Shown here: positions 18,129 to 32,849 of the stretch, piece after piece
Layout of the letters: every line of letters begins with the position of its first letter
Numbering within the stretch: position 1 is the stretch's first letter
NCBI RefSeq assembly: GCF_004803505.1
Contig: NZ_SSWH01000005.1
Location: 124,001 to 188,000, forward strand
Reading direction: 5' to 3'
DNA from: Arthrobacter echini
GTDB lineage: Bacteria > Actinomycetota > Actinomycetes > Actinomycetales > Micrococcaceae
Length of the DNA stretch: 64,000 nucleotides
Notes under the pieces: model-generated
What the model saw: only the letters and a program-made list of their open reading frames with translations
What the model was told of the DNA's origin: nothing
The model's database searches: none
Position numbers and translations under genes: made by a program

Positions 18129-19517
18129 ATGACCGAATACGCAGTAGTCGATCCCGCGACGGGCAGGACGGTGCGGGAGTACCCGCTCATCAGCGACGAA
18201 GAGCTCGACTCCGTCGTCGGCACCGCCGACGCCGCATACCGGCAGTGGGGGCGCGTCACCTCGGCCGCCGAGCGTGCCGCGGTCGTCCGGCGCGTCAGCG
18301 AGCTCCACCGTGAGCGGCGCGACGAGCTCGCCGAGATCATCGTGCGGGAAATGGGCAAACCCCTGGAGCAGGCCCTCGGCGAGGTGGACTTCTCCGCGGA
18401 CATCTACCTCTACTACGCGGACCACGCGGAGGAGTTCCTGGCCGACGAACCCATCTCCCTCGCCGATGGTTCCGGGAGCGCGTTCATCCGCCGCTCGCCG
18501 GTCGGCGTGCTGCTCGGCATCATGCCCTGGAACTTCCCGTACTACCAGGTTGCCCGGTTCGCCGGCCCGAACGTCGTCATCGGGAACTCGATCCTGCTCA
18601 AGCACGCGCCGCAGTGTCCGGAGTCCTCGGCGGCGATCGAGCAGATATTCCGGGATGCGTTGGCCCCCGAGGGCGTCTACACCAACATCTATGCGTCCAA
18701 CGATCAGGCGGCGACGCTCATCGCCGACCGGCGCCTGCAGGGCGTCTCCCTCACCGGTTCCGAGCGGGCCGGTGCAGCCGTCGCGGAGATCGCCGGGCGC
18801 AATCTCAAGAAGGTGGTCCTCGAACTCGGCGGTTCCGATCCGTTCATCGTCCTCTCCGCCGACAACCTCGACGAGGTCGTCGAAGGTGCGGTGGCGGCGC
18901 GCATGGACAACAACGGGCAGAGCTGCAACGCCGCCAAGCGCTTCATCGTCATCGATGAGCTGTACGAGCAGTTCGAGCAGAAGTTCGTCGACCGCATGCG
19001 TGGCATCACGCCGACTGATCCGCACAAGGCCGATGCCGAGCTCGGCCCGTTGTCCTCCAGTGCAGCGGCGTCGAACATCGAGGACCAGCTCGAGCGCGCG
19101 GCGGATCAGGGTGCCCAGGTACTGACCCGGGGTGAGCCCTCGGGCACCTTCGTCAGCCCGGCAGTACTGACGGACGTGACGCCGTCCATGGACGCCTTCA
19201 ACGAGGAGTTCTTCGGGCCCGTCGCGCAGCTCTACCGCGTGTCGAGCGAGGAGGAGGCGGTCGAGCTGGCCAATGCCACGGACTTCGGCCTGGGTTCCTA
19301 CGTCTTCACGACGGACCCGGAGCAGGCGGAGCGGGTGGCCGATCAGCTCGAGGCCGGCATGGTCTGGATCAACACCGTCCTGGGGGATGCGGCGGAACTG
19401 CCGTTCGGCGGCGTGAAGAAGTCGGGCTTCGGGCGGGAACTCGGCCGGCTGGGTGCCGAGGAGTTCGTGAACAAGAAGATGATCCGCATCGCAGGAACGA
19501 CGCCGGCCGGCAGCTAG
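18129..19517 (+). CDS. NAD(P)-dependent aldehyde dehydrogenase (succinate-semialdehyde type)
   Basis: A 462-residue aldehyde dehydrogenase. Cofactor motif PWNFPYYQVAR, SLTGSERAG, general base Glu in LELGGSDPF and the catalytic Cys in NNGQSCNAAKRF are all present, and the C-terminal PFGGVKKSGFGRELG is normal. The short form resembles GabD/Sad-type semialdehyde dehydrogenases. The ATG has TGGAGGA upstream. It precedes the GntR gene of the catabolic locus but is separated from it by a strong terminator, so it may or may not belong to that regulon. It could oxidise aspartate or succinate semialdehyde. Confidence 0.85.
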   Translation: MTEYAVVDPATGRTVREYPLISDEELDSVVGTADAAYRQWGRVTSAAERAAVVRRVSELHRERRDELAEIIVREMGKPLEQALGEVDFSADIYLYYADHAEEFLADEPISLADGSGSAFIRRSPVGVLLGIMPWNFPYYQVARFAGPNVVIGNSILLKHAPQCPESSAAIEQIFRDALAPEGVYTNIYASNDQAATLIADRRLQGVSLTGSERAGAAVAEIAGRNLKKVVLELGGSDPFIVLSADNLDEVVEGAVAARMDNNGQSCNAAKRFIVIDELYEQFEQKFVDRMRGITPTDPHKADAELGPLSSSAAASNIEDQLERAADQGAQVLTRGEPSGTFVSPAVLTDVTPSMDAFNEEFFGPVAQLYRVSSEEEAVELANATDFGLGSYVFTTDPEQAERVADQLEAGMVWINTVLGDAAELPFGGVKKSGFGRELGRLGAEEFVNKKMIRIAGTTPAGS

Positions 19518-19525
19518 CGTTCGAC

Positions 19526-19559
19526 GCTGACCCGCCGTGCTGCAGGACGGCGGGTCAGC
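19526..19559 (+). terminator. rho-independent-type terminator
   Basis: Perfect 13-bp inverted repeat GCTGACCCGCCGT / ACGGCGGGTCAGC, 8-base loop, starting 9 bases after the aldehyde dehydrogenase stop. Confidence 0.85.
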
Positions 19560-19778: not shown

Positions 19779-20516
19779 ATGCCGAGATTCGAGCCTGTCG
19801 TCCGCGAATCCACTCCATCGATCATCGCCGGCAAACTACGGAAGGCGATCGGCCTGGGGCATATTCCGCCCGGAGCCCAGCTCGGTGAGGCCGAGCTGGC
19901 CAGGGAGCTCGGCGTGAGCCGCGGGCCTCTTCGAGAAGCCATGCAGCGGCTGACCCAGGAGGGCCTCCTCATCAGCATCCGCAACCGCGGGCTGTTCGTC
20001 ATCACCATGACCGACGACGAGGTCCGGGACATGTACGTTGCACGGACCGCAGTGGAGCGGGCTGCCGCCGAACTCATCCTCCAAAAGGGTTTCGAGGATG
20101 TGGTGGCCCGGCTGCTGGACCTCGTGAAGGCCATGAAGAAGGCGGCCGACGCGGAAGACCTGGATGCGCTGTCCGAGGCGGACATGGCGTATCACGAGAC
20201 GCTCGTGGTGTCAGCCGGTAGCACCCGGCTGACGCGGATGCATCAAACCCTGCTGACCGAGACGCGGATGTGCCTGACGGCTCTGGAGAAGAAATATCCG
20301 GACCCTCATACTCGGGTGGCTGAACACCAAGCCATCGCCGAAGCGTTGGGCGCCGGCAACGCCGAACTGGTGGAGGAGCTCCTGATCAGCCACATGGACG
20401 ATGCCCTGCAGCGGCTCACCGATAACGAGAACGAAGGCCTTGCCAGCGGGTGCGATGGGAACAGGAGCAGTAGGATCGGCGGCATTGAGAGCGGCAAGCA
20501 ACCGGCGACCGCCTAG
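19779..20516 (+). CDS. GntR-family (FadR/FCD) transcriptional regulator of the catabolic locus
   Basis: A 245-residue protein from the ATG at 19779. The N-terminal winged helix has IIAGKLRKAIGLGHIPPGAQL, LARELGVSRGPLREAMQRL and the wing EGLLISIRNRGLFV; the C-terminal all-helical FCD domain (about residues 85-220) has DMYVARTAVERAAAELI, MAYHETLVVSAGS and HQAIAEALGAGN. FCD regulators bind an organic-acid or amino-acid effector and usually repress palindromic T-N-G-T-N2-A-C-N-A sites. Such sites occur at 24279-24296 and 25359-25370 within the divergent gene set it adjoins. The effector is unknown; known ectoine regulators (EnuR) are MocR-type, so this is a different class. Confidence 0.88.
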   Translation: MPRFEPVVRESTPSIIAGKLRKAIGLGHIPPGAQLGEAELARELGVSRGPLREAMQRLTQEGLLISIRNRGLFVITMTDDEVRDMYVARTAVERAAAELILQKGFEDVVARLLDLVKAMKKAADAEDLDALSEADMAYHETLVVSAGSTRLTRMHQTLLTETRMCLTALEKKYPDPHTRVAEHQAIAEALGAGNAELVEELLISHMDDALQRLTDNENEGLASGCDGNRSSRIGGIESGKQPATA

Positions 20517-20584
20517 CTCCGGAACCGCCGGCTGCATTCGGCGTGGAGCCGGCGCTCCTTCCTGGCGGGTGGTCTCCTGAAGGA

Positions 20585-21823
20585 TCACTTCCCGCCGTGG
20601 CGCAGGCACATGAGCGCGTAGGCACGCGCAGCCGCGACGATCTCCGCAATGCGGACGGATTCGTTCACTTGGTGGGCCTGGTCGTTCAGGCCCCCGGGGC
20701 CCATGACGATGGTCGGTACGCCGAGGTCGCGGGCGACGAAGCCGCCGTCGCAGGCCGCCGTCCAGCCGCTGATGCTGCTGTCCACGCCCAGATCGGCCAG
20801 CGCGGAGACGGCATTGGCCACGAGCGGGTGGGTCTCCGGAGTGCGGAAGCCCGGCATTTCCATGGTGACCTCCGCCTCGACCGAGATGCCGTCCGTGTCG
20901 ATGCCGGCGTCCCTGATCTGCGCCTTCAGCCTGTCCAGGATCAGTGGTGCGTCGTCATCGGGCATCAGCCGCCGGTCCAGGGATACCGCGCAGGTGTCCG
21001 CCACCATGGATGTTCCGGTTCCACCTCTGATGAGGCCGATGTTCCAGGTCCCGGCGCCGAGCAGCGGGTCCGGCTCGGACTGTAGCCGGGCGTGGTCGGT
21101 GCGGACGAGGTCCAGGATCCTCGCAGCGGCGTCGATAGCGTTTCGCCCGTCCGCGGGCCGGCCGGAGTGGGCCGACCTGCCGGTGATCTCCAGTTCGATG
21201 TAGCTGTCCCCGCGGCAGCCGATCACCGTGGCGAGGTCGGTGGGCTCGGCCACGACGCACGCCGAGTAGGAGAACGCCGTATCGGCGCTGGCGGCTGCGG
21301 TGTACGCCCGGATGCCGATGCCGCGGTCCTCCTCGTCCACGGTGCACGCCAGCGAGATCCGGAAGGGCAGTTCCGCCCTGGCCTCCTTCAGCGCCTTCAG
21401 TGCGACGACGACGGCGGCGAGCCCACCCTTCATGTCCGTGGACCCGCGTCCGACGAGTCGACCGTCCACGAGGTACGGCTCGAACGGAGCCCGATCCCAG
21501 CCCGTCCCGGCCGGTACGACATCCGAGTGGCCGAGGAACAGGACGCCCGGCAGGGTACCGCCCGGCAGGAGGACCGTGAGGTTCGGTCGACCGGGTGCCA
21601 CCGTGTTCGTCGATACGTCAAGACCGGAGCGTTCACAGAAGTCCTTCAGAACCTCCACCGTGGCCTCTTCGGTTCCGCCGGGGTTCTCCCCACCGGCGGC
21701 CACCAGCGCCGAAGTCAGGGAGACCAGCTCGGACTCGCTGATCAGACCCAGGACCTCCTGTTCATACGGGTCTGGCTCGGGGGACGTCTGCTCAGGAGGC
21801 ACTCGTGCAGGAGCCGGCGTCAA
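20585..21823 (-). CDS. M20 peptidase-family deacylase (ArgE/DapE-like)
   Basis: 412 residues. The metal motif LFLGHSDVVPAG (His then Asp), GRGSTDMKGGLAA (second Asp), CTVDEEDRGIG (catalytic and metal Glu pair), VAEPTD and late GPGGLNDQAHQVNE (His) are the full M20 set; the dimerisation lid begins GRSAHSGRPADG. Family members remove acyl groups from amino acids such as acetylornithine or succinyl-diaminopimelate. The start is a TTG that overlaps the previous stop (TTGA at 21820-21823), so it is translationally coupled to the aminotransferase gene. In this locus it could deacetylate N-acetyl-2,4-diaminobutyrate, the job done by the unrelated DoeB/EutE elsewhere (inference). Confidence 0.85.
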   Translation of the reverse strand: MTPAPARVPPEQTSPEPDPYEQEVLGLISESELVSLTSALVAAGGENPGGTEEATVEVLKDFCERSGLDVSTNTVAPGRPNLTVLLPGGTLPGVLFLGHSDVVPAGTGWDRAPFEPYLVDGRLVGRGSTDMKGGLAAVVVALKALKEARAELPFRISLACTVDEEDRGIGIRAYTAAASADTAFSYSACVVAEPTDLATVIGCRGDSYIELEITGRSAHSGRPADGRNAIDAAARILDLVRTDHARLQSEPDPLLGAGTWNIGLIRGGTGTSMVADTCAVSLDRRLMPDDDAPLILDRLKAQIRDAGIDTDGISVEAEVTMEMPGFRTPETHPLVANAVSALADLGVDSSISGWTAACDGGFVARDLGVPTIVMGPGGLNDQAHQVNESVRIAEIVAAARAYALMCLRHGGK

Positions 21824-23073
21824 GAGTTCCCCGAGCCGTTCAGTGCATCGAGTTCCAGATCCATCGCGCGGCGGAGGCGGATGATGCCCTCCTCGGTCCG
21901 CTCGGGCGTGGTGGAGGCGAAGCAGAGCCGCAGGGCGTCGTCGAACCTGCCACTGGCGGACAGGGCCGGCCCGGGGATGAAGGCCACCCCTTCCGCGAGA
22001 GCCGTCTCGAAGAGCTTCTGCGTGGAGATCCGCGCATCCTCGCCCTGGAGCGTCAGCCAGAGGAAGAAGCCACCTTCAGGGTCGGTCGTGGTGACCCTGC
22101 TGCCCAAATTCCGGTGCAGGCTCTCCTGCATGGAGTCCTTGCGGTGCCTGTACTCCGTGCGGAGGCCGGCGAGGTGCTTGTCCAGACCACCGCGGCGGAT
22201 GAACTCGGCCACGATGTGCTGAGCGGGGACGTTGGTGCAGGTGTCCATGGCCTGCTTGGCGTTGATGACCAGTTGGCGTAACGCCGGATCCGTGTCCACC
22301 CAGCCCACGCGTAGTCCCGGGGCCAGGATCTTGGAGAAGGTGCGCACGGAGAACAGCAGCGGATCCGCCGGGCTCAGGGCCTGCAGGGAGGGCAGGTCCT
22401 CGCCCTCGAATCGCAGCAGCCCGTAGGGGTCGTCGTCGATGATCACGGCGTTCCACTCGTGCGCCAACTCCAGGAGCTGGTGGCGGCGTGGCAGGGAAAG
22501 TGTGGTCCCGGAGGGGTTCTGGAAGTTCGGGATGGTGTAGATGGCCTTGGGAGTGCGGCCAGCGGCGGCAACCAGGTCCGGCAGGGCCTCCACGATGAGG
22601 CCGTTCTCGTCGGTGGGTGCCTCGAGCAGCTCGGCGCCGTAGCTGAGGGCAGTGGCGCTGCCGTTGGTGTACGTAGGGCTTTCCACGATGACCAGGTCGC
22701 CGGGATTGATGAAGATCTTGCAGGCCAGGTCCAGGCCCTGCATTCCGCCGGCAGTGATGGTGACGCGGTCCTCCGTGGTGGGGTCCGACGTCCCTGCCAG
22801 GTACTCGACAAGGTTGTCCAGCAGGACGGGCTCGCCCTCGGTGGCACCGTAGGTCATGGAGCTGTGGTCGAAGACCTGGTCCGCGATGTCGCGGAATTCG
22901 GCCAGGGGCACGGCCTCGTCCGCCGGCGATCCCATCGCGAAGCGGACGATGTCGTGCGTCTGCGCGGCCAGCAGCGACGTGCTGGAGTCGATGACGGAGC
23001 CGACGAGACCGGCTGCGCGATCCGCCAGAGGCAGCGTGTCGCGGGATCTGGTAGCACTGTGGTCAACGGTCAT
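21820..23073 (-). CDS. PLP-dependent fold-I aminotransferase (2-aminoadipate/LysN-like)
   Basis: 417 residues. The fold-I pattern is clear: VTITAGGMQGLDLACKIFI, IYTIPNFQNPSGTTLSL, VIIDDDPYGLLRFEG and the PLP lysine region VRTFSKILAPGLRVGW. This is the class found as stand-alone 2-aminoadipate-type transaminases and as the C-terminal half of MocR regulators; here there is no DNA-binding domain. It lies 3 bases after the M24 hydrolase gene and overlaps the M20 gene, so the three form a tight operon. Its substrate may be an amino acid made in the pathway; ectoine regulators of the MocR type have a related domain, which is suggestive only. Confidence 0.85.
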   Translation of the reverse strand: MTVDHSATRSRDTLPLADRAAGLVGSVIDSSTSLLAAQTHDIVRFAMGSPADEAVPLAEFRDIADQVFDHSSMTYGATEGEPVLLDNLVEYLAGTSDPTTEDRVTITAGGMQGLDLACKIFINPGDLVIVESPTYTNGSATALSYGAELLEAPTDENGLIVEALPDLVAAAGRTPKAIYTIPNFQNPSGTTLSLPRRHQLLELAHEWNAVIIDDDPYGLLRFEGEDLPSLQALSPADPLLFSVRTFSKILAPGLRVGWVDTDPALRQLVINAKQAMDTCTNVPAQHIVAEFIRRGGLDKHLAGLRTEYRHRKDSMQESLHRNLGSRVTTTDPEGGFFLWLTLQGEDARISTQKLFETALAEGVAFIPGPALSASGRFDDALRLCFASTTPERTEEGIIRLRRAMDLELDALNGSGNS

Positions 23074-23076
23074 GGC

Positions 23077-24258
23077 CTAGCCGCCTTTCTGGATGAGTTC
23101 GCGGGGGAAGCTGGTGAACGTCTCCACGCCGTCGGCGGTGACGCGGATCGATTCGGAGAGTTCGTAGCCGTAGTTGTCCATCCACATTCCGCCGATGACG
23201 TGGAAGGTCATGTTCTCCGCCAGGACGGATTCGTCCTCGGAGCGGATGGAGATGGTCCGCTCACCCCAGTCCGGCGGGTAACCGATGCCGATCGAGTACC
23301 CGACACGGGAGGGCTTCTCCAGCCCGTACCTGGCCAGCGTCCAGTTCCAGGTGCGGGCGAGTTCGCGCACGGGTACGCCCGGCTGGACGTGGTCCAGCAC
23401 GGCGTCGAGGCCTTCGGCGACGGCGTCGGCCAGCTTCGCGAGACGCGCCGGCCTCCTGCCCAGTGTCAGGGTGCGAGCCAGCGGAGTGTGGTAGCGCCGA
23501 TAGGCGCCGGCCAGTTCGACGACGACCGACTGACCGGCCTCGAAGCGGTCCTCGTTCCAGGTCAGGTGCGGGGTGTCGGATGCCTCGCCCGTCGGGAGAA
23601 GCGGCACGATGGCGGGGTAGTCACCGCCGATCTCGTCGGTGCCCCTGATCTGGGCCTGGCTGATGGCCGCAGCGGCGTCGCACTGACGGACACCGACGTC
23701 GATCGTGTCGACCGCGGCCTCCATGGCCGCCTGGCAGACCTGCGCTGCGCTGCGCATCAACTGGATCTCTGCCGGTGACTTGACGGCGCGCACCCAGTTG
23801 ACCAGCTCGAAGCTGTCCACGAGCGTCCATTCCGGAATGGCATTGACCAGGGAGCGGTAGGCCTTCGGGGAGAAGAAGTGCGAGTCCATTTCCAGCCCGA
23901 CGCACCCCTTGGCCGCCGCGGCTACGAGATAGCGCTCGCGGAGGGCGAAGGCCACCCAGTCGAAGGGGTGCAGGTGCGGGCGATGCACATACCGCTCGGG
24001 GTAGCCCACGATGCATTCCTTCGGCAGCCAGGTGGTGCGGAAGGCACCGTCGGCATCCATGGCACGGGCGAAGAGCAGCATGGGGCCGTCAGCAGGGACG
24101 AAGACCACCTGCGGGGTGTAGAAGGACCACGCGTTGTACCCGGTCAGGTAGTAGATATTGGCGGGGTCGGTCACCAGCAGGGCCGAGAGGCCCTGCTTCG
24201 CCAGGCGTTCACGGACGCCGGCCAGCCGGGCGTCGTACTCCTCTTGGCTGAACAGCAA
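23077..24258 (-). CDS. M24-fold hydrolase, ectoine hydrolase (DoeA/EutD)-like
   Basis: 393 residues with a creatinase-type N-domain and a pita-bread C-domain. Several stretches match what I recall of ectoine hydrolases: YLTGYNAWSFYTPQ, IVGYPERYVHRPHLHPFDW, NWVRAVKSPAEI, GGDYPAIVPLLPTG, PHLTWNEDRFEAGQ, ELAGAYRRYHTPLART and GIGYPPDWGERTISIR. Glu248 in VVVELAG sits where the covalent catalytic Glu of EutD is expected. Ectoine hydrolase opens the ectoine ring to N-acetyl-2,4-diaminobutyrate in the cytoplasm. It starts with TTG, supported by GGAGGT (24264-24269) upstream, and is first in the operon behind the palindrome at 24279-24296. A creatinase or Xaa-Pro peptidase role is the alternative. Confidence 0.72.
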   Translation of the reverse strand: MLFSQEEYDARLAGVRERLAKQGLSALLVTDPANIYYLTGYNAWSFYTPQVVFVPADGPMLLFARAMDADGAFRTTWLPKECIVGYPERYVHRPHLHPFDWVAFALRERYLVAAAAKGCVGLEMDSHFFSPKAYRSLVNAIPEWTLVDSFELVNWVRAVKSPAEIQLMRSAAQVCQAAMEAAVDTIDVGVRQCDAAAAISQAQIRGTDEIGGDYPAIVPLLPTGEASDTPHLTWNEDRFEAGQSVVVELAGAYRRYHTPLARTLTLGRRPARLAKLADAVAEGLDAVLDHVQPGVPVRELARTWNWTLARYGLEKPSRVGYSIGIGYPPDWGERTISIRSEDESVLAENMTFHVIGGMWMDNYGYELSESIRVTADGVETFTSFPRELIQKGG

Positions 24259-24278
24259 GAGCTACCTCCGATGAGTAG

Positions 24279-24296
24279 TAGATTGTCTACAATCTA
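24279..24296. promoter_or_regulatory. palindromic operator of FadR/GntR type
   Basis: TAGATTGT-CT-ACAATCTA: perfect 8-bp arms with a 2-base centre, 20 bases upstream of the M24 hydrolase start. It contains the T-N-G-T-N2-A-C-N-A core typical of FCD GntR regulators and matches the site at 25359-25370 (ATTGT-N2-ACAAT). Confidence 0.75.
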
Positions 24297-24344
24297 GGGG
24301 ATGTGGTGCTGCTCACACAAACTGTGGGACGAGCGGTTCGGGGA

Positions 24345-25334
24345 TCAGCGGCGGCTGATGTAGCCGCGGTCCTTGTCCACGACGTTGGCGAGGTTCCGGC
24401 CCCTTGTCCAGAGCTCCAGGTTGTCCAGGAACTGTCGCGCCAGCGCGTCACGCCAACCGACCACGTCACCACTCATATGGTCGGACATGTGGACGTTCTC
24501 CATGGTCCAGAACGGATGGCCTGACGGGAGGGGCTCCTCACTGAAGACGTCCAGCGAGGCAGCCGCGATCCGGCCCTCCCCGAGGGCCTCGATGAGGGCC
24601 GGTTCGTCCACCAGGGCGCCTCGGCCGACGTTGACGAGATGCGCGGACGGTTTCATGGCGGCGAGGACGCGGCCGTCCAGCACGTGCCGGGTCTGCTCGG
24701 TGAGCGGCGCGACCAGTACCAGATGGTCCGCCCATCCCGCGTGCTCCGCCAGGTCCGCGCTCCGGTGGACCCGTCCGAAGTCAGGATCATCCTCGCGCGC
24801 CGTGCGGCCGATCCCGCGGACCTCCAGCCCCACGGCGCGCAGGAGCCTCGCTGTGGCGCGTCCGATGCCGCCCGTCCCCACGACCAGCACCCGCGAGCCG
24901 CCACTGCGGGTGACCTCGCGGTGCTCCCAGATCCCCCGGCGCTGGAGGGCCTTGCTCAGGTGCAGCTGCTTGTCGTGGCCCAGGATGGAGGCCAGGACGA
25001 ACTCCGCGATGGGTTGATCGAACGTGCCGTGGGCGTTGGTCACCACGACGTCGGAGGAGCGCAGCTCGTCGAACATCAGGGTGTCGACGCCTGCGGCGGC
25101 CACGTGCACCCACTTCAGTGCGTCCGCGTGCGGCCACGCATCCCTCAGTGCCGAGGAGAAGAAGTCCCAGAGGAGGAGGACATCGGCCCCGGCGGAGGCC
25201 CGGGCAAGGCCGGCGGCATCCGTCACGGTGACCTCTGCCAGCGCCTCGATCCCGGCCATGTTGTAGGGGAGGGGCTGTCCTTCGGCGGTGAGCACGACGA
25301 CGCGGGGCGCTCGGTCCTCTTCAGTAATGGGCAC
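24345..25334 (-). CDS. D-isomer-specific 2-hydroxyacid dehydrogenase
   Basis: 329 residues, GTG start. The Rossmann loop VLVVGTGGIGRATARLLRAVG (about residues 144-164), the catalytic Arg region VNVGRGALVDEPAL, a Glu in the SEEPLPSGHPFW segment and the His in MSDHMSGD make it a D-2-hydroxyacid dehydrogenase. Such enzymes interconvert 2-oxoacids and D-2-hydroxyacids with NAD(P)H. It is transcribed leftward from a 65-base divergent promoter shared with the class III aminotransferase gene, and it ends 86 bases before the start of the M24 hydrolase gene on the same strand. Together with the FAD/Fe-S oxidoreductase it could cycle a 2-oxoacid of the pathway. Confidence 0.85.
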   Translation of the reverse strand: MPITEEDRAPRVVVLTAEGQPLPYNMAGIEALAEVTVTDAAGLARASAGADVLLLWDFFSSALRDAWPHADALKWVHVAAAGVDTLMFDELRSSDVVVTNAHGTFDQPIAEFVLASILGHDKQLHLSKALQRRGIWEHREVTRSGGSRVLVVGTGGIGRATARLLRAVGLEVRGIGRTAREDDPDFGRVHRSADLAEHAGWADHLVLVAPLTEQTRHVLDGRVLAAMKPSAHLVNVGRGALVDEPALIEALGEGRIAAASLDVFSEEPLPSGHPFWTMENVHMSDHMSGDVVGWRDALARQFLDNLELWTRGRNLANVVDKDRGYISRR

Positions 25335-25358
25335 GGCCCAACCGTACGATACGAAAAG

Positions 25359-25370
25359 ATTGTTGACAAT
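25359..25370. promoter_or_regulatory. palindromic operator between divergent genes
   Basis: ATTGT-TG-ACAAT, a perfect 12-base palindrome in the 65-base gap between the hydroxyacid dehydrogenase gene (leftward) and the aminotransferase gene (rightward). It shares its arms with the core of the site at 24279-24296. Confidence 0.72.
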
Positions 25371-25399
25371 AGACAGATGTGACCTGCATCATATGAACC

Positions 25400-26683
25400 A
25401 TGACTTCGCTCAGCCCGGCACTCAAGCAAGCAACTCCCGTCGTCGTGGATCATGCCCTCGGGAGCTGGATCTACGGGACCGACGGCAGGGACTACCTGGA
25501 CTTCACCACCGGCATCGGCGTGACGAGCACCGGCCACTGCCACCCGAAGGTGGTCGCTGCCGCGCGCGAGCAGGTGGGCAAGATCATCCACGCCCAATAC
25601 ACCACGGTGATGCACACCCCGCTGCTGGAGCTCACCGAGAAGCTCGGAGAGGTCCTTCCCTCCGGTCTCGACTCCGTGTTCTACGCAACCTCGGGGTCCG
25701 AGGCCGTCGAGGCCTCGATCCGTCTGGCGCGGATGGCCACCGGACGCCCCAACATCGTGGTGTTCCAGGGAGGATTCCACGGCCGCACCGTCGCCGCTGC
25801 CTCCATGACCACGGCGGGGACCAGGTTCTCCGCAGGGTTCGCCCCGCTGATGGCAGGCGTCCACATGTCCGCCTTCCCGTATGCCTACCGTTATGGCTGG
25901 GACGAGGACGCCGCCGTCGCCTTCGCGCTGCAGGAACTCGACTACCTGCTGCAGACGCGCACCGCGCCGAACGACACCGCGGCTTTCCTCATCGAGCCCG
26001 CACTGGGCGACGGCGGCTACCTGCCCACACCACCGGCCTTCATGGAAGGGTTGCGGGAACGCGCCGACACCCACGGCATCCAGCTGATCTTCGACGAGGT
26101 CCAGGCCGGCGTGGGCCGCACCGGAAGGTTCTGGGGTCATCAGTACTCCTCCGCCACACCGGACATCCTCATCACGGCGAAGGGCATCGCCTCCGGTTTC
26201 CCGATCTCCGCGATCGCCGCATCCACCGAGACCATGTCCAAGGCATGGCCCGGATCCCAGGGCGGTACGTACGGCGGTAATGCCGTGGCGGCCGCCGCCG
26301 GCGTCGCGACGCTCGGGGTGGTGGAGGAGGAAGGCCTCGTGGAGAACTCACGTATTCGCGGTGAGCAATTACAGGGTGGCCTGGAGGCGATCCAGGGGCG
26401 CTTCCCCGTGATCGGCGACGTCCGCGGACGCGGCCTCATGCAGGGCATCGAGTTCACCGGCGAGGACGGCACGCCCGACGGCGCCACGGCCGCGGCGGTC
26501 CAGCAGGCCACTGTGGATCAGGGCCTGCTCACCCTGACCTGCGGGCCCGCCGGCAACGTGATCCGCCTGATACCCGCCCTGGTGGTCACCGCCGAGGAGA
26601 TCTCCATGGGCCTGGAACGTTTCGAGGCGGCGGTCGGCGCCGTCGTCGGCGGTGTCCCGGCGACTGCTGCTTCCACGGCCTGA
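25400..26683 (+). CDS. class III aminotransferase (diaminobutyrate/4-aminobutyrate type, DoeD-like)
   Basis: 427 residues. It opens with VVDHALGSWIYGTDGRDYLDFTTGIGVTSTGH and keeps YATSGSEAVEASIRLAR, FQGGFHGRTVA, the PLP Asp in LIFDEVQAGVGRTG and the Schiff-base Lys in ITAKGIASGFPI. Enzymes of this class move a terminal amino group from 4-aminobutyrate, ornithine or 2,4-diaminobutyrate to 2-oxoglutarate. In the proposed pathway it would convert 2,4-diaminobutyrate to aspartate semialdehyde. It is the first gene of the rightward operon, directly behind the palindrome at 25359. Substrate is inferred from context. Confidence 0.87.
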   Translation: MTSLSPALKQATPVVVDHALGSWIYGTDGRDYLDFTTGIGVTSTGHCHPKVVAAAREQVGKIIHAQYTTVMHTPLLELTEKLGEVLPSGLDSVFYATSGSEAVEASIRLARMATGRPNIVVFQGGFHGRTVAAASMTTAGTRFSAGFAPLMAGVHMSAFPYAYRYGWDEDAAVAFALQELDYLLQTRTAPNDTAAFLIEPALGDGGYLPTPPAFMEGLRERADTHGIQLIFDEVQAGVGRTGRFWGHQYSSATPDILITAKGIASGFPISAIAASTETMSKAWPGSQGGTYGGNAVAAAAGVATLGVVEEEGLVENSRIRGEQLQGGLEAIQGRFPVIGDVRGRGLMQGIEFTGEDGTPDGATAAAVQQATVDQGLLTLTCGPAGNVIRLIPALVVTAEEISMGLERFEAAVGAVVGGVPATAASTA

Positions 26684-26691
26684 GTCGAACG

Positions 26692-29600
26692 ATGTCCGTA
26701 TCCTCCCCGCCTGACGCGTCCTCCGTCGCTGTGTCTGCCGCTGCGCCCGATCCGGCGCAGCAGGTGGTGCTCGAGCGGCTGGCTGCGGCCGGGATCGACG
26801 CCGACAGCTCGCCCCGGCGCCTGGCGGAGTACTCCTACGATGCCTCCAACTATCGTGTCCCGCCGCTCGCCGTGGTGTTCCCGCGGTCGACGGAGGACGT
26901 GGTGGCGACGCTGACGGTATGCAGGGAAACCGGGACACCGCTGATCAGCCGCGGCGGTGGCACGTCCATGGCGGGCAACGCGATCGGTCCCGGCGTGGTG
27001 CTCGACTTCTCACGGCACCTGACCCGGATCCACAGGGTCGATGAAGCGGCAGGCACGGTGTCCGTGGACCCCGGCGTCGTGCTCGCCGTGCTGTCCCGAG
27101 AGGTGGAACACGCCACCGGGAACCGCTGCACGTTCGCCCCGGATCCGTCGTCCAGGACCCGCGCCACGGTAGGCGGTTCGCTGGGCAACGACGCCTGCGG
27201 CAACCACTCCGTGCGCTACGGCCGCACCTCGGACCACGTGGTGGAGCTCGACGTCGTCTCCGCCGACGGCGCGCGCCTCACCGCCACGGCCACCGGACTG
27301 CGTGCCACGCACCCGGAGGACGGCTTCGCCGCAGCCCGTGCTGCCACCCTCACCACCTCCCTCAAGGAGCTCGCCCACCGCAACCTGGCAGGATTCCGGA
27401 CCGAGCTGGGACGCATCCCGAGGCAGGTCTCGGGGTACCACCTTGCCAACCTGCTGCCGGAGAACGGCTTCGACGTGGCCCGTGCCCTGGTGGGTTCGGA
27501 GGGCACCTGCGTGATCGTGGTCGGTGCCCGCATGAAGCTCGTGCCCAAGCCGGCCAGCGCACTGCTGGTCTGCCTCGGCTACGCGGACGTGGTGGAGGCC
27601 GCACGGGACATCGGAACCATCCTGGAGTTCTCCCCGGCAGCCGTCGAGGGCATCGACGAGGCGATCGTGGACACCATGCGGTTCCGCCGTGGTGAGGACG
27701 CGGTGCTCGGTCTGCCGGACGGCAGGGCCTGGCTGTACGTGGATCTCGACGGTGAGGATCCCGCCGCCGTGGAGGCCGAGGCCGGGCGCCTCCTGGCCCG
27801 GCTCCGGGAGAACGGCCGCCTCGTGGAGGGCCGACCGGTTCCCGACGCGGTCGAGCGCGCCTCCCTCTGGAGGGTCCGCGAGGACGGCGCCGGGCTGTCG
27901 TCCCGCCTCTCCACCGGCGGCGAGTCGTGGCCCGGCTGGGAGGACTCCGCCGTCGCGCCGGAGAACCTCGCCGATTACCTCTCCGACGTGCGCGATCTCC
28001 TCGACGGCTACGGCCTTCGAGGCGTCATGTACGGGCACTTCGGGGCCGGCTGCATGCACATCCGCATCACCTACGATCTGCGCACAGAGGAGGGCCGCGA
28101 GGTCTTCCGGCAATTCTCGGACGCGGCGGCCCGGCTGGTGGTCCGGCACGGCGGCTCGCTCTCCGGCGAACACGGGGACGGGCGGGCCCGCTCCCAGCTG
28201 CTGCCCCTGATGTACTCGCCTTCCATGCTGGAGGCCTTCGGCGCCTACCGCCGGCTGTGGGATCCCGCCGGAGTCCTCAACCCGGGCTCTCTCACGGACC
28301 CTGACCCGCTGGACGCGAACCTGGCCCTGGACGGTGTGCCGCAGCGCGCATGGCGGACCAGCTTCGATCTGCGGCCGCTGCACTCCGGCGGAGGATCCGC
28401 CGTCGAGACGGACGATTCCGCGGACGAGGGTGGCAGCGGCACGGATCCGTGGGTCCACGCCGTCCAGGCCTGCATCGGCGTGGGACGCTGCCGCGCCGAC
28501 TCCGGCGGCGTGATGTGCCCCAGTTACCGGGCCACGGGGGACGAGAAGGATTCCACCCGCGGCCGTGCCCGCGTCCTGCAGGACATGGTCCGCGGCGCCC
28601 GCACCGTGGAGGAGGGCTGGAAGTCCGAGGAGGTCCGGGAGGCCCTGGACCTCTGCCTGTCGTGCAAGGCCTGCTCGAGCGACTGCCCTACGGGTGTGGA
28701 CATGGCCGGCTACAAATCCGAGTTCTTCGACCACTACTACCGGGGCCGGCTGCGGCCGCTCTCGCACTTCTCCCTGGGCTGGTTGCCGCGATGGCTCAAG
28801 CTCACCGGCCGCGTTGCACCGCTCGTCAACGCCGTGCTGGCCACGCCGCTCGGGAAACTGGCTGCCCTGCTCGGCGGCCTCACCACAGCGCGTGCCCTGC
28901 CGCGGTTCGCCGGTGGCGCAGAATGGCGCGGGGAGGTCGCCGCGGCCGGCGTGGTGATGCCGCGACGGCAGTGGGGAGGCAGGAGGCGCGACGGCGAAGC
29001 ACGCCGGGCTTCCGCCGTCGATCCCGCGACGGACGGTGTGGTCCTGTTCGTGGACACCTTCACGCGCGGCTTCCGCCCCGAGGTGGCCGGTGCTGCGGCC
29101 CGTGTCCTCACGGATGCGGGGGAGCGCACCGAATGCTCGGCGGACGCGTGCTGCGGCCTGACCTGGATCTCCACGGGCCAGCTGGACACCGCGAAGCGAC
29201 TGCTGGGCAATGCCGCCGAGGCGCTCGACGACGGCACGGACCGTCCGATCGTGGTTGTGGAACCCAGCTGCGCGGCGGCGCTTCGGAAGGACCTGCCCGA
29301 ACTGGTCCACACCGACCAGGCGCGGCGCGTCGCGGCCAGGGTGTGCAGCTTCGCCGCGCACATCGACCAGCTCGGGCGTGCCGGCTGGACACCCGCTCCG
29401 GCGAAGCCGCTGCCCGACCGCGTGGTGCTGCAGACGCACTGCCACGAATACTCCGTATTCGGTGCCGGCACGCAGAAAGCCGCACTGACCACCGTCGGTA
29501 TCACCGACGTCGTTGACGCCACCGGCTGCTGCGGCGTGGCAGGGAACTTCGGCTTCGAGAAGGACCACTACGAGGTGAGCATGCTCGTCGCGGAGCAGGC

Positions 29601-29826
29601 CCTGGCTCCGGCTCTTCGCAGCACCGGTGGGGACGCCGTGGTACTGACCGACGGCTTCTCCTGCGCCATGCAGGTCCAGCAGCTCGACGGCGAGCGTCAG
29701 GGCCATCACCTCGCCCAGCTGCTCGACCCGGGAACCAGCAAGGGTGGCGCACCCGATCCCGACCAGCACACCTGGCCGCCCGGTCGCGGCCCCGATTCCA
29801 CGCCTCATCACGCAAAGGACTCCTGA
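26692..29826 (+). CDS. FAD-linked oxidase fused to 4Fe-4S ferredoxin / CCG domains (D-lactate dehydrogenase-like)
   Basis: 1044 residues. Residues 40-560 form an FAD-binding-4 oxidase (SRGGGTSMAGNAIGPGVVLDF, GGSLGNDACGNHSVRYG, SGEHGDGRARS, WDPAGVLNPGS). Residues 585-680 carry two Fe-S motifs: CIGVGRCRADSG..MCPSYR and CLSCKACSSDCPTGVDM. The C-terminal third has two CCG-type motifs (CCGLTWI and CCGVAGNFG). This YdiJ/Dld3 layout oxidises D-2-hydroxyacids and passes electrons onward, probably to the quinone pool. It starts 8 bases after the aminotransferase gene and is followed one base later by the aldehyde dehydrogenase gene, a tight operon. The exact hydroxyacid is unknown. Confidence 0.88.
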   Translation: MSVSSPPDASSVAVSAAAPDPAQQVVLERLAAAGIDADSSPRRLAEYSYDASNYRVPPLAVVFPRSTEDVVATLTVCRETGTPLISRGGGTSMAGNAIGPGVVLDFSRHLTRIHRVDEAAGTVSVDPGVVLAVLSREVEHATGNRCTFAPDPSSRTRATVGGSLGNDACGNHSVRYGRTSDHVVELDVVSADGARLTATATGLRATHPEDGFAAARAATLTTSLKELAHRNLAGFRTELGRIPRQVSGYHLANLLPENGFDVARALVGSEGTCVIVVGARMKLVPKPASALLVCLGYADVVEAARDIGTILEFSPAAVEGIDEAIVDTMRFRRGEDAVLGLPDGRAWLYVDLDGEDPAAVEAEAGRLLARLRENGRLVEGRPVPDAVERASLWRVREDGAGLSSRLSTGGESWPGWEDSAVAPENLADYLSDVRDLLDGYGLRGVMYGHFGAGCMHIRITYDLRTEEGREVFRQFSDAAARLVVRHGGSLSGEHGDGRARSQLLPLMYSPSMLEAFGAYRRLWDPAGVLNPGSLTDPDPLDANLALDGVPQRAWRTSFDLRPLHSGGGSAVETDDSADEGGSGTDPWVHAVQACIGVGRCRADSGGVMCPSYRATGDEKDSTRGRARVLQDMVRGARTVEEGWKSEEVREALDLCLSCKACSSDCPTGVDMAGYKSEFFDHYYRGRLRPLSHFSLGWLPRWLKLTGRVAPLVNAVLATPLGKLAALLGGLTTARALPRFAGGAEWRGEVAAAGVVMPRRQWGGRRRDGEARRASAVDPATDGVVLFVDTFTRGFRPEVAGAAARVLTDAGERTECSADACCGLTWISTGQLDTAKRLLGNAAEALDDGTDRPIVVVEPSCAAALRKDLPELVHTDQARRVAARVCSFAAHIDQLGRAGWTPAPAKPLPDRVVLQTHCHEYSVFGAGTQKAALTTVGITDVVDATGCCGVAGNFGFEKDHYEVSMLVAEQALAPALRSTGGDAVVLTDGFSCAMQVQQLDGERQGHHLAQLLDPGTSKGGAPDPDQHTWPPGRGPDSTPHHAKDS

Positions 29827-29827
29827 T

Positions 29828-31321
29828 ATGACAACCCCGACCACCAGCACCGCCGGGACCTCACAGCAGGCGCTCGACGCGATCTCCCGTGTCAGCACCG
29901 GCCTGTTCATCGACGGCGAATGGGCCGAAGCAGCTTCCGGCAAACGGTTCAACGTCGTCAATCCCGCCACCGAGGAGGTCATCGCCAGTGTGGCCGACGG
30001 CGGTCCGGACGATGCGCAGCGCGCCATCGAGACCGCCGGCCGCGTGCAGCAGGAGTGGGCGAGGACGGCCCCTCGGGAGCGCAGCGAGATCCTGCGCCGC
30101 GCCTACGACCTGATCATGGCCCGCCAGGACGATCTGGCCCTGATCATGACCACCGAGATGGGCAAGCCCTTCGCGGAGGCCAGGGGCGAGGTCGCCTACG
30201 CGGCAGAGTTCTTCCGCTGGTTCTCCGAAGAGGCGGTGCGGATCGGCGGTGACCTCACCAGCACGGGTGACGGCAGGAACCGGATCCTCGTCTCGAAGGA
30301 ACCCGTGGGCCCCTGCGTGCTGATCACGCCCTGGAACTTCCCGCTGGCGATGGGCACCCGCAAGATCGGCCCCGCGATCGCTGCCGGCTGCACCATGGTG
30401 TTCAAGCCCGCGAACCTCACCCCGCTGTCGTCCCTCGCGCTGGTGGACATCCTCGTCGAGGCAGGCCTGCCCAGGGGCGTGCTCAATGTCGTCTGCACCA
30501 CCAAGGCCTCGGATGTCGTGACGCCCTGGATGGCGAGCGGCATTGCCCGCAAGGTCAGCTTCACCGGCTCCACCGCGGTGGGTGTCCTGCTCCTGCAGCA
30601 GGCAGCCCAGCACGTGATGCGGTCCTCAATGGAACTGGGTGGGAACGCTCCGTTCATCGTGTTCGAGGACGCGGACCTGGACCGCGCTGTGGAAGGCGCC
30701 GTGGCCGCCAAGATGCGGAACATGGGTGAGGCCTGCACCGCCGCCAACCGACTGTTCGTCCAGCGACCGGTCGCCGATGAATTCGCCCGTCGGCTCGGCG
30801 CGCGCCTGAGCCGGCTGTCGGTGGGCGACGGCGCCGAGCCCGGTACCGACGTCGGGCCCCTGGTGGAGGAGAAGGCGCTCACCAAGGTGCAGGAGCTGGT
30901 GGGCGACGCCGTGTCCAGGGGCGCCACCGTGGTCTGCGGCGGCTCCCGACCTGAGCGCCCCGGCTACTTCTACACCCCCACCGTGCTCTCCGGCGTCGAT
31001 CCGGGATCCGACCTGATGAGCCAGGAGATCTTCGGCCCGGTGGCACCGGTGGTGCCCTTCGACACGGAGGAGGACGTTGTCCGCCTGGCCAACGACACCC
31101 CGTGGGGCCTGGTGGGTTACCTCTTCACGCAGGACGTGGACCGAGGCTTCCGGGTCGGAGACGCGCTCGAGGTGGGCATGGTGGGCCTCAATACAGGCAT
31201 CGTCTCCAATCCTGCCGCGCCCTTCGGCGGAATCAAGGCCTCCGGGCTCGGACGTGAGGGCGGTCGCGTGGGAATCGAGGAATTCCTCGAGACCAAGTAC
31301 ATGGCCATGCCGCGCAGCTGA
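29828..31321 (+). CDS. semialdehyde dehydrogenase (GabD/DoeC-like)
   Basis: 497 residues from the ATG at 29828, one base after the preceding stop. Motifs: GLFIDGEWAEAASGKRF, TPWNFPLAMGTRKIGPA, FTGSTAVG, catalytic Glu in MELGGNAPF, catalytic Cys in NMGEACTAANRLF and PFGGIKASGLGREGG. The sequence is most like NAD(P)-dependent succinate-semialdehyde dehydrogenases. In the proposed pathway it would oxidise aspartate semialdehyde to aspartate (DoeC role). It is the third gene of the rightward operon and precedes the transporter gene. Confidence 0.88.
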   Translation: MTTPTTSTAGTSQQALDAISRVSTGLFIDGEWAEAASGKRFNVVNPATEEVIASVADGGPDDAQRAIETAGRVQQEWARTAPRERSEILRRAYDLIMARQDDLALIMTTEMGKPFAEARGEVAYAAEFFRWFSEEAVRIGGDLTSTGDGRNRILVSKEPVGPCVLITPWNFPLAMGTRKIGPAIAAGCTMVFKPANLTPLSSLALVDILVEAGLPRGVLNVVCTTKASDVVTPWMASGIARKVSFTGSTAVGVLLLQQAAQHVMRSSMELGGNAPFIVFEDADLDRAVEGAVAAKMRNMGEACTAANRLFVQRPVADEFARRLGARLSRLSVGDGAEPGTDVGPLVEEKALTKVQELVGDAVSRGATVVCGGSRPERPGYFYTPTVLSGVDPGSDLMSQEIFGPVAPVVPFDTEEDVVRLANDTPWGLVGYLFTQDVDRGFRVGDALEVGMVGLNTGIVSNPAAPFGGIKASGLGREGGRVGIEEFLETKYMAMPRS

Positions 31322-31391
31322 TGCCCGTGCTGCCGGACACCGAGATGGACCTCACTTTCCGACGAGAACCACCTACCCGAAGGACGAACCA

Positions 31392-32849
31392 ATGATGACC
31401 AGTCCCCAGCACGTGGATCAGACTCATCCGGAACTTCTTGCCGCGCCCGGCGAGGAGCCCGGCACCGAGGAGGGCAAGCGGTCACTCCACCGTTCCATCC
31501 TGGGTTCCGCCCTCGGTAACGCCGTCGAGTGGTTCGACTACGGAGTGTACGGCTACCTCACCATCTACATGGCCACCAACTTCTTCGGCTCCGCCGACGG
31601 CGACGGCGGCCTCGGCGTCACGCTCACCCTCGCCACCCTCGCGCTGTCCTTCCTGGTAAGGCCGTTGGGCGGCCTCATCCTCGGACCGCTCGGCGACAGG
31701 GTGGGGCGGCAGAAGGTCATGGTGCTCACCGTGACGATGATGACCGTGGCCACCGGCGCCATCGGCCTGCTGCCGACGCTGGACACGGTGGGCCTGCTCG
31801 CCCCGGCGCTGCTGCTGCTCTGCCGGCTGGTGCAGGGCTTCTCCGCGGGTGGCGAGTACGGGGGTGCTGCCGTGTACATGGCCGAGTGCGCTCCCGACCG
31901 GCGCCGCGGATTCTTCGGGTCCTTCCTGGAGTTCGGCACCACGGTGGGCTTCATCCTGGCGGCCGTGGTCTGCACGTCGCTGATCACCATCGTGGGGGAC
32001 CAGGGCATGGAGGACGGCTGGTGGCGTCTGCCGTTCCTGCTGACCATCCCGCTCGGCCTCACAGCACTGTGGATCAGGACCCGGCTGGTCGAGGCCCCGG
32101 TCTTCTCAGAGGCCTCGCAGCACCGGGAGACCGCCAAGTCGCCGATCCTGAACGTGCTGAGGAAGAACTGGCGCCAGATCTTGGTCCTGGCCGGCTTCGT
32201 GGTGCTGCTCAACGTGGCGTTCTACCTGATCCTCGGGTACATGCCCACCTACATGAGCAGCCAGCTCGGCCACAGCACGGCGCAGGGCAACTGGATGCTC
32301 GTGGCCATCATGGCGCTGATGCTCGTGGCCATACCGTTCGCGGGCAAGCTGTCCGATCGCGTGGGACGCAAGCCGCTGCTGCTCGTGGCCGCCGCCGGGT
32401 ACACGCTGCTGTCAGTGCCCGCGATCATGCTGCTGGGCACGTCGAGCCTGATCCTGCGGTTCATCGGCCTGGCGGCACTCGGGCTGCTGCTGGTGATCCT
32501 GGTGTCGTCGGTGTCCTCGACGCTTCCGGCACTGTTCCCCACGGCGGTGCGGTACACGGGCTTCGCGATCGGCTACAACTTCTCCACCGCATTCTTCGCC
32601 GGGCCGTCGCAGACCGTGGCCAACCAGCTGATCGAGACCACCGGGAACCAGCTGGTACCCGGGTGGTACATGGCCATCGCCGGCGCGATCGGCCTCGTGA
32701 GCGTCCTGTGCATGCGGGAGACCGCGCAGGCCACCCTTCGCGGTGAGGAGCTTCCGGGTCTGCCCGAGTCCGTCGGCTTCCCGAAGCGCGGCTACGTGGA
32801 GGCAAACCGTGTGGACGCCGAGACGCGCCGCGCGAGCTTCGTGAGCTGA
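31392..32849 (+). CDS. MFS metabolite:H+ symporter, ProP-like (compatible solute uptake)
   Basis: 485 residues with about 12 membrane helices. NAVEWFDYGVYGYL, FLVRPLGGLILGPLGDRVGRQKVM, LVQGFSAGGEYGGAAVYMAEC, DRRRGFFGSFLEFG and the mid-protein PFAGKLSDRVGRKPLL align closely with E. coli ProP as I recall it. ProP and its relatives import proline, betaine and ectoine with protons. The long C-terminal coiled coil of E. coli ProP is absent; the tail here is short (PESVGFPKRGYVEANR). It closes the rightward operon, 70 bases after the aldehyde dehydrogenase gene. Substrate by context: ectoine-type solute (inference). Confidence 0.85.
   Translation: MMTSPQHVDQTHPELLAAPGEEPGTEEGKRSLHRSILGSALGNAVEWFDYGVYGYLTIYMATNFFGSADGDGGLGVTLTLATLALSFLVRPLGGLILGPLGDRVGRQKVMVLTVTMMTVATGAIGLLPTLDTVGLLAPALLLLCRLVQGFSAGGEYGGAAVYMAECAPDRRRGFFGSFLEFGTTVGFILAAVVCTSLITIVGDQGMEDGWWRLPFLLTIPLGLTALWIRTRLVEAPVFSEASQHRETAKSPILNVLRKNWRQILVLAGFVVLLNVAFYLILGYMPTYMSSQLGHSTAQGNWMLVAIMALMLVAIPFAGKLSDRVGRKPLLLVAAAGYTLLSVPAIMLLGTSSLILRFIGLAALGLLLVILVSSVSSTLPALFPTAVRYTGFAIGYNFSTAFFAGPSQTVANQLIETTGNQLVPGWYMAIAGAIGLVSVLCMRETAQATLRGEELPGLPESVGFPKRGYVEANRVDAETRRASFVS

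Follow-up and report, generated by a model that had tools for sequence, protein, structure and literature searches.

Which compound does a nine-gene locus of Arthrobacter echini break down, and along which route, when it groups an M24-fold hydrolase with an M20 deacylase, two aminotransferases and two D-2-hydroxyacid dehydrogenases? The locus occupies positions 19779-32849 of the 64,000-nucleotide stretch analysed here (the window, to which all positions refer), taken from a 3.18-Mb genome that is 99.99% complete. Ectoine is very probably the substrate, and we consider it likely that the module carries out ectoine catabolism with the M20 enzyme as deacetylase. The lower route that we propose, via D-malate to oxaloacetate, is put forward tentatively, as a plausible reading. 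The genes form two divergent four-gene units, one on the minus strand running leftward from ~25.3 kb (HADH, M24, AT12, M20) and one on the plus strand from 25.4 kb (AT3, FADFeS, ALDH2 and a ProP-like MFS transporter), together with one regulator:

19779..20516, plus strand: GntR/FCD regulator (Pfam FCD 84.5 and GntR 59.3 bits, both above the Pfam cut-offs; listed as an open reading frame from 19575, with the likely ATG at 19779)
20585..21823, minus strand: M20 deacylase of the ArgE/DapE type (TIGR01910, 209.3 bits against a cut-off of 217.6)
21820..23073, minus strand: AT12, class I/II aminotransferase, 2-aminoadipate/LysN-like, without helix-turn-helix (profile and structure matches)
23077..24258, minus strand: M24-fold hydrolase, DoeA/EutD relative (TIGR02993, 425 bits; PDB entry of DoeA, 353 bits; fold; tree)
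24282..24293, no strand: palindrome ATTGTCTACAAT, predicted operator 5' of the M24 gene (genome-wide site count)
24345..25334, minus strand: HADH, D-2-hydroxyacid dehydrogenase (Pfam 2-Hacid_dh_C, 163.6 bits)
25359..25370, no strand: palindrome ATTGTTGACAAT, predicted operator in the divergent HADH/AT3 promoter (genome-wide site count)
25400..26683, plus strand: AT3, class III aminotransferase of the gamma-aminobutyrate (GABA) transaminase type (profile and structure matches)
26692..29826, plus strand: FADFeS, FAD/4Fe-4S D-2-hydroxyacid dehydrogenase, YdiJ/GlcD-like (NF049975, 419 bits against a cut-off of 1350; domains FAD-oxidase_C, FAD_binding_4, Fer4_8 and CCG)
29828..31321 (start re-set), plus strand: ALDH2, aldehyde dehydrogenase of the succinate semialdehyde dehydrogenase (SSADH) type (TIGR01780, 585.9 bits against a cut-off of 646)
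31392..32849 (start re-set), plus strand: ProP-like MFS solute:H+ symporter (NF007927, 405.8 bits against a cut-off of 544)
18129..19517, plus strand: second aldehyde dehydrogenase, outside the conserved module

The genes named in the initial annotation are all real and lie close to where it placed them, including the M20 enzyme and the GntR/FCD regulator; AT12, HADH and FADFeS were left out of that account. It had also counted two aldehyde dehydrogenases. ALDH2 does belong to the module, while the 18129-19517 gene stands outside it, being found at an identity of at least 48% in one (L086) of the 80 related loci described below, with L040 just under that value.

The assignment to ectoine starts from the M24 protein, which was compared with profiles, structures and relatives. 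Against the DoeA model TIGR02993 it scores 425 bits over residues 4-390 of 391, a cut-off of 613 not being reached, and 219 bits against the second DoeA model (DoeA_2); across 394 genomes of the class TIGR02993 gave no match over cut-off and seven at E<=1e-60. Among solved structures, the sequence comparison yields 353 bits for DoeA of Halomonas elongata, 81 for the next match (prolidase) and 38 for creatinase. Identity amounts to 41% with H. elongata DoeA and 44.5% with the DoeA proteins of S. meliloti and Rhizobium. The AlphaFold model (mean predicted local distance difference test score 91.9) superposes on ectoine-bound DoeA (6twk) with a template modelling (TM) score of 0.95 at 1.7 Å. DoeA was also the clear best match of a fold search (TM 0.93-0.95, 41% identity); the other 45 of the 50 structures listed reach TM 0.69-0.85 at 2.6-6.0 Å with 15-24% identity, and creatinase gives TM 0.83-0.85 at 3.1-3.2 Å.

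At the residue level most, though not all, of the conserved DoeA positions are kept. Five proteobacterial DoeA proteins share 185 invariant positions, of which the window M24 keeps 123 and one other M24 protein of the same genome keeps 47; within the five DoeA motif blocks the window M24 keeps 52 of 66 invariant positions, the counts for the relative M24ri1 and for an unrelated M24 being 41 and 10. Blocks present in the protein are GYxxWSFY, GDYPAIVPxLPTG...PHLTW, ExAG..RYH.PLxRT and YPPDWGERT. E248 and P259, as in DoeA, are aligned with prolidase positions that we take to be metal ligands. Three of the four other M24 genes of the genome (L001-L003) gave no tblastn match to the window M24, and are outside the tree and the position counts. 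In a midpoint-rooted tree (omitting L014 and L017, identical to L023 and L074, and L013, 89% identical to L045) the window protein falls inside a 70-row actinobacterial clade (support 100/99). A Shinella row, encoded beside EutA and an amidohydrolase, is sister to this clade (92/82), the DoeA clade branches next, and Bacillota and haloarchaeal rows lie outside, joining at only 95/73. By sequence, fold and motifs the protein does not group with creatinase or Xaa-Pro peptidases, and its earlier reading as a DoeA/EutD relative is borne out; it looks like a DoeA-type protein of the same radiation, placed outside the characterised clade.

The window genome's own link to ectoine runs through its relatives, because EhuB, EutA, EutC, EutE and ectoine synthase gave no match in it at the limits used, and EutB only one below cut-off. 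Relatives were taken as the best 80 of at least 595 stretches (67 actinobacterial, 13 from Bacillota or archaea), so that the family is larger than counted here. In an Arthrobacter metagenome-assembled genome (MAG; L060), with M24, AT12 and AT3 89%, 90% and 92% identical to those of the window, the module is followed by GntR, a small protein, an amidase, two EutA-like proteins, EhuA, EhuD and EhuC. The three Ehu proteins score above their cut-offs (375.5 against 345.4, 262.1 against 205.2 and 265 against 197 bits, respectively), and EhuB (269 against 190.9 bits) lies just beyond the end of the locus. A Nakamurella MAG carries all four Ehu genes inside the module and over cut-off, EhuA by one bit (346.4 against 345.4). 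EhuB over cut-off was found in 24 of the 69 distinct carrier genomes and within ~10 kb of M24 in seven of these 24, compared with ~0.1 expected at random if ~20 kb of 4 Mb is assumed per genome. The seven cases rest on coordinate matching and include two Cryobacterium species; in the five besides L060 and Nakamurella it was EhuB that was scored, and in one of them EhuA as well. Resemblance to EutA is distant in the EutA-like proteins (81-100 bits, the cut-off being 318), and one of four scores slightly better on arylmalonate decarboxylase. Ectoine synthase occurs in 16 of 30 carriers. Around the sister M24 of Bacillota, a Priestia plasmid encodes in a row PucR, EutB, PdxS, M24, a cyclodeaminase, a cystathionine-gamma-synthase relative, M20, homoserine dehydrogenase, an aldehyde dehydrogenase and ProP; the window symporter is 41% identical to this ProP. 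In the relatives, the locus looks like part of an ectoine regulon.

Several of these neighbourhoods vary in ways worth recording. The small protein, the amidase and two distinct EutA-like proteins recur as an extension of the module (L060:14598-20993, L036, L021, L030, L033, L062-L093), some extended loci also having EhuABCD; the L079 amidase is of the PRK06169 type. The extension is possibly a hydroxyectoine branch without EutBC. A PLP (pyridoxal phosphate) enzyme of the cystathionine-gamma-synthase family stands beside M24/DoeA in L102 (Priestia megaterium pPmT-3), L077, L071 and L107 (Pluralibacter pFB2.3), thereby spanning Bacillota and one enterobacterial doeAB cluster (L107). PdxS, a PLP synthase subunit, is divergent to ehuB around the palindrome in L140 (an Arthrobacter MAG) and lies inside the cluster in L102, an arrangement that would fit joint regulation of PLP supply and the PLP-rich pathway. 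In Mesorhizobium (L104, pMspAR02c) annotated ehuB, ehuA, ehuC and ehuD are followed by M24, M20, an Asp/Glu racemase 35% identical to EutA and an oxidoreductase; this is an alphaproteobacterial ectoine-type cluster with an M20 gene at the usual place of EutE.

The co-occurrence of the module genes was counted in the 56 actinobacterial loci, out of 67, that exceed 20 kb, with the 13 Bacillota and archaeal loci left out. Thresholds were chosen after viewing the list of related loci, a gene counts as absent when it is not within ~10 kb on each side of M24, and the counted loci are related to one another. M20 was found in 47 loci, AT12 in 42, ALDH2 in 36, HADH in 34, FADFeS in 33, GntR (at least 33% identity) in 31, AT3 in 30 and the MFS transporter in 28. 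HADH occurs only with AT12 (34/34) and AT3 only with HADH (30/30), and FADFeS accompanies AT12 in 32 of its 33 loci. The same genes are found together across distant actinobacterial families, and the grouping is more than chance. Agrococcus and Citricoccus carry a reduced set of M24, M20 and MFS genes. Carriers among culturable genera include Arthrobacter, Kocuria, Williamsia, Gordonia, Rhodococcus and Cryobacterium, and the enzyme module is present in both Arthrobacter pullicola and A. crystallopoietes; one Kocuria record (L037) is labelled Acidobacteriota in the taxonomy and looks mislabelled.

Seven Brevibacterium loci (L041, L038, L042, L052, L056, L057 and L070) encode an M24 protein 66-68% identical to that of the window together with a distant class III aminotransferase, without the module. 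In L041, the annotated one, M24 has an AsnC/Lrp regulator and a lactate-permease-like protein as neighbours, and none of the seven contains a ATTGTNNACAAT site. In these loci the same hydrolase is set in another gene context. A possible fusion of EutA with M24, the 735-residue open reading frame of Ornithinicoccus L063, was rejected, as the part before M24 has no EutA-model match at E<=1e-6. A search of viral contigs with the window M24 returned four pattern matches, none of them confirmed. All 590 matching plasmid records are below 60% identity to the window M24 (the best is 50% among the matches listed), and the actinobacterial module was not present in the nine plasmid-record regions viewed for context.

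The palindrome ATTGTNNACAAT is common to the module and, in relatives, to ehuB. It occurs twice in the window, at 24282 before M24 and at 25359 in the HADH/AT3 promoter, compared with no occurrence in 100 shuffles, and these are the only two sites in the whole genome. Across eight whole genomes 28 of the 32 sites are at the M24 locus: 2 of 2 in the window genome (G000), 6 of 6 in G441, 5 of 7 in G409, 1 of 1 in G394, 4 of 4 in G433, 6 of 6 in G411, 3 of 3 in G424 and 1 of 3 in G404 (C260:37250, identical to L031:4029). Another site of G404 stands on a different contig, in front of an EutA1-EutA2 pair. Among the controls, the reversed pattern was matched twice in G441 and in no other of the eight genomes, and three further palindromes of equal composition are absent from the 67 actinobacterial loci. 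At least one site is present in 44 of these 67 loci, and 93 of the 115 sites in total are <=400 bp upstream of a module gene; for AT3 orthologues a site lies within that distance in 32 of 33 cases. Loci with HADH have a site in 39 of 40 cases (L044 has none), and AT12 is found in 6 of the 23 site-less loci. A site directly precedes ehuB in the genomes of Arthrobacter, Homoserinimonas, Cryobacterium and Nakamurella, while an exact site is missing from L027 and L085, which also bear ehu genes. Two Lentibacillus loci show sites before M24 and GntR. From this co-occurrence we infer that the GntR/FCD protein binds ATTGTNNACAAT, where it would act as a repressor controlling both units.

The genes of the classical pathway were sought in the window genome with family models. 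EutE (TIGR02994) gave no match at E<=1e-10, and none of 48 genomes exceeded its cut-off of 402.7 bits, eight having a weaker match (best 250 bits). EutB is represented only by a match below cut-off (263.5 against 413 bits), a level also reached by 6 of 14 control genomes. EutC gave none at E<=1e-5, EhuB none at E<=1e-30 and ectoine synthase none at E<=1e-10; EutA gave none at E<=1e-3, which is a weaker negative, as the control genomes gave no match either. The EhuR model, which is taken to be EnuR, has ten matches below cut-off (one of them AT12) and none above. None of the canonical cluster partners (EhuB, EutA, EutB, EutC, EutE and the EhuR model) is therefore over cut-off, the TRAP transporter not having been searched for, in agreement with the absence of EutE/DoeB, EutABC and EnuR noted in the initial annotation.

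A deacetylase is provided by the M20 protein in our reading. Its residues H99, D101, D130, E164, E165, E193 and H384, which we take to be metal and catalytic residues, are invariant in all 55 aligned rows. It is not DoeB2: in the ranking of the 48 NCBIfam families matched, NF038260 falls outside the top 25 (the 25th scores 70.7 bits). No BLAST match to the Priestia M20 was obtained at E<=1e-5, and identity to the Shinella M20 is 27% over 182 residues. M20-type amidohydrolases of Bacillota clusters match NF038260 below its cut-off. In kind, an M20 enzyme substituting for EutE is nothing new: NCBI has a family named DoeB2, and these Bacillota proteins match it; the ArgE/DapE-type enzyme described here looks like a separate recruitment. 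Of the swapped deacetylase first suggested for this locus, the facts stand (M20 is present and no EutE exceeds cut-off), while the idea itself has precedent in DoeB2 and in the abgB genes mentioned in excerpts of PMC13188858.

We infer each reaction of the following pathway from the enzyme types. In the window genome the ProP-like symporter would import ectoine, which M24 would hydrolyse to N-acetyl-2,4-diaminobutyrate; M20, in the place of EutE, would then release 2,4-diaminobutyrate (DABA) and acetate. AT12 would act as an alpha-transaminase on DABA to give 4-amino-2-oxobutyrate, and HADH would reduce this to (R)-4-amino-2-hydroxybutyrate. Subsequent transamination by AT3 would yield (R)-malic semialdehyde, to be oxidised by ALDH2 to D-malate and by FADFeS to oxaloacetate. 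Deacetylation may come before or after the first transamination, and the alpha carbon would be kept as an (R)-hydroxyl throughout the lower route.

Features of the individual enzymes are consistent with this sequence of steps. AT12 has an invariant K248 (49 of 49 rows), presumably the PLP lysine. In HADH, R238, E267 and H286, which we take to be the Arg-Glu-His triad, are invariant in 39 of 39 rows. In all 39 rows R177, never replaced by an acid, follows the second Rossmann strand; an arginine there presumably favours NADPH, so HADH is probably an NADPH-type reductase that would work in the direction of reduction. Judged by its family it is D-specific. PDB matches of FADFeS include D-lactate and D-2-hydroxyglutarate dehydrogenases, and we propose that it is a D-malate dehydrogenase. 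HADH and FADFeS are thus of opposite expected direction, and the molecule would therefore have to change in between, by means of AT3 and ALDH2. AT3 scores 328.7 bits on TIGR00700 (GABA aminotransferase type) against 249.2 on the diaminobutyrate family. It is only 30% identical to the class III aminotransferase of a Salinivibrio doeA-doeB cluster, which is taken to be Atf from its place and belongs to another class III group. Structure matches of ALDH2 are SSADHs, with 8s33, likewise named SSADH in the PDB table, ranking fourth among the 11 structures listed. According to excerpts of PMC11353897, 8s33 is the malic semialdehyde dehydrogenase that makes D-malate in carnitine catabolism. The lower end proposed here would share that step; it differs in that the carnitine route converts D-malate to pyruvate by a beta-decarboxylating NAD enzyme and not by an FAD/Fe-S enzyme.

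Several points weigh against the D-malate route. On TIGR01780 the Ssd of a classical cluster scores the same as ALDH2 (587.5 against 585.9 bits), so that malic and aspartate semialdehyde are not told apart by ALDH2. Of the 34 HADH loci, 5 are without FADFeS at the locus, and other uses of these enzyme types are conceivable. The best-surviving alternative is the classical route, in which AT3 and ALDH2 make aspartate, AT12 converts aspartate to oxaloacetate, and HADH and FADFeS are neighbouring or accessory. Every enzyme type needed for it is present, and the published pathways of Halomonas and of methylotrophs run in this way, as far as the excerpts of PMC7192451 and PMC5924519 go. Its difficulties are that AT3 lies nearer to GABA aminotransferases and is so distant from the putative Salinivibrio Atf, and that the restriction of AT3 to loci with HADH, and of HADH to loci with AT12, is left unexplained. 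We regard this alternative as a serious possibility on the improbable side. The plain conversion of DABA via aspartate semialdehyde to aspartate, as drawn in the initial annotation, leaves the conserved AT12, HADH and FADFeS unused and requires of AT3, nearer to GABA aminotransferases than to Atf/DoeD, a role of the latter kind; on balance that annotation was probably wrong on the lower route. A hydroxy or D-malate route in ectoine catabolism was not found among the matches listed in the open-access PMC literature.

Ectoine itself as the substrate also has to be weighed against contrary observations. The M24 protein remains 188 bits below the NCBI cut-off for DoeA and, in the tree, outside the seven-row proteobacterial DoeA clade (support 100/100). 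The window genome lacks EhuB, EutA, EutC, EutE and ectoine synthase matches at the limits used, two Arthrobacter carriers have a EutE relative of 241-250 bits elsewhere in their genomes, and in 6 of the 56 loci M24 stands without any of the other eight module genes, judged by the thresholds applied. An over-cut-off EhuB is frequent in the class (64 of 394 genomes) and is not near M24 in 17 of the 24 EhuB-bearing carriers, so that Ehu alone is not specific to catabolism and it is its proximity to M24 that matters. The locus being one for ectoine catabolism, as first suggested, is upheld by the DoeA-like M24 and what looks like an ectoine regulon in the relatives; from the window genome by itself the question could not be decided.

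A different cyclic amidine or N-acyl amino acid, also carried by transporters of the EhuABCD and ProP types and reached through a shifted M24 specificity, with 5-hydroxyectoine as a sub-case, would account for the low DoeA score and the separate clade. It would also fit the EutA-like proteins, amidase and small protein that accompany the module in many relatives without an assigned reaction, and the existence of ~41%-identical M24 relatives with altered motifs in other contexts (M24ri1). We consider such a substrate unlikely given that the DoeA motif blocks are largely kept, that the model fits substrate-bound DoeA so closely, and that ectoine-linked genes surround the M24 lineage (Ehu and EutA-like in Actinobacteria, EutB in Bacillota). 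A peptide, proline or creatine as substrate, with M24 as Xaa-Pro peptidase or creatinase and M20 as peptidase, would follow the Pfam names, which give only Peptidase_M24, Creatinase_N and Peptidase_M20, and is dismissed as highly improbable in view of the prolidase and creatinase scores (81 and 38 bits against 353 for DoeA), the fold comparison, where no structure of the 50 listed besides DoeA exceeds TM 0.85 or falls below 2.6 Å, and the DoeA-like E248 and P259 at the positions aligned with prolidase metal ligands.

The ectoine module can be set beside known systems. With the proteobacterial DoeABCD/EutDE-Ssd-Atf system it shares an M24-fold hydrolase, an N-acetyl deacetylase, a class III aminotransferase and an SSADH-type dehydrogenase, and, in the module's relatives, EhuABCD and EutA-like proteins. 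In contrast, the window has an ArgE/DapE-type M20 enzyme instead of EutE, a GABA aminotransferase-type instead of an Atf-type aminotransferase, GntR/FCD with ATTGTNNACAAT instead of the MocR-type EnuR, and a ProP-like MFS transporter; it adds a class I aminotransferase and two D-2-hydroxyacid dehydrogenases. Methylotrophs, in excerpts of PMC7192451, have doeBDAC with a divergent DoeB, Tsukamurella paurometabola being the actinobacterial case. The DoeB of Methylomicrobium alcaliphilum is only 22% identical to that of H. elongata, and N-alpha-acetyl-DAB appears in a doeB mutant after down-shock (PMC7192451). The M. alcaliphilum enzymes are presumably those modelled as DoeB2 and DoeA_2 in NCBIfam. 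An alternative deacetylase is common to both systems, whereas the window M24 scores higher on DoeA than on DoeA_2 (425 against 219 bits) and its M20 is ArgE/DapE-like and not DoeB2.

Provisional clusters in Bacillota, Actinomycetota and haloarchaea were described in 2026 (PMC13188858). In the excerpted text, eutE is absent in the Bacillaceae examined, abgB, thrA and adh recur in Gram-positive clusters, and the arrangements abgB-thrA-adh and pucR-eutBCD-atf are given. These clusters resemble the present module in their eutD homologues, the lack of eutE (in those Bacillaceae), the abgB amidohydrolase, MFS, Ehu or BCCT transporters and the lack of EnuR (in Bacillota). Those excerpts contain no module in which a class I aminotransferase is combined with two D-2-hydroxyacid dehydrogenases and a palindrome common to several units. 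The same excerpts count few Proteobacteria as experimentally proven ectoine consumers and treat the Gram-positive clusters as provisional; a survey cited in the excerpted part of PMC5924519 confines consumers to Proteobacteria. By title or abstract start, none of the matches listed in open-access PMC on ectoine in Arthrobacter or Rhodococcus, or on ectoine and GntR, described the hydroxy/D-malate route, and neither the lower route nor the regulon was met in the literature searched there. Taken as one proposal, an actinobacterial second lower pathway via D-malate, with an independently recruited deacetylase and a GntR/FCD ATTGTNNACAAT regulon that includes ehuBCDA and EutA-like genes, is offered with somewhat greater reserve than the lower route by itself.

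Beyond the module, the adjoining plus-strand gene at 34070-40531 encodes a 2153-residue protein with Swt1-like HEPN, DUF4011, AAA helicase and REase_MTES_1575 domains, which matches the PADLOC candidate defence family PDC-S37 with 909 bits. The GC content is 0.555 at 60001-64000 and 0.64-0.70 in the rest of the window.

The module is conserved, carries a defined palindrome and occurs in culturable genera, making it directly testable. If true, the lower route would add a novel path of diaminobutyrate breakdown, and annotators could rename the M24, M20 and D-2-hydroxyacid dehydrogenase genes.

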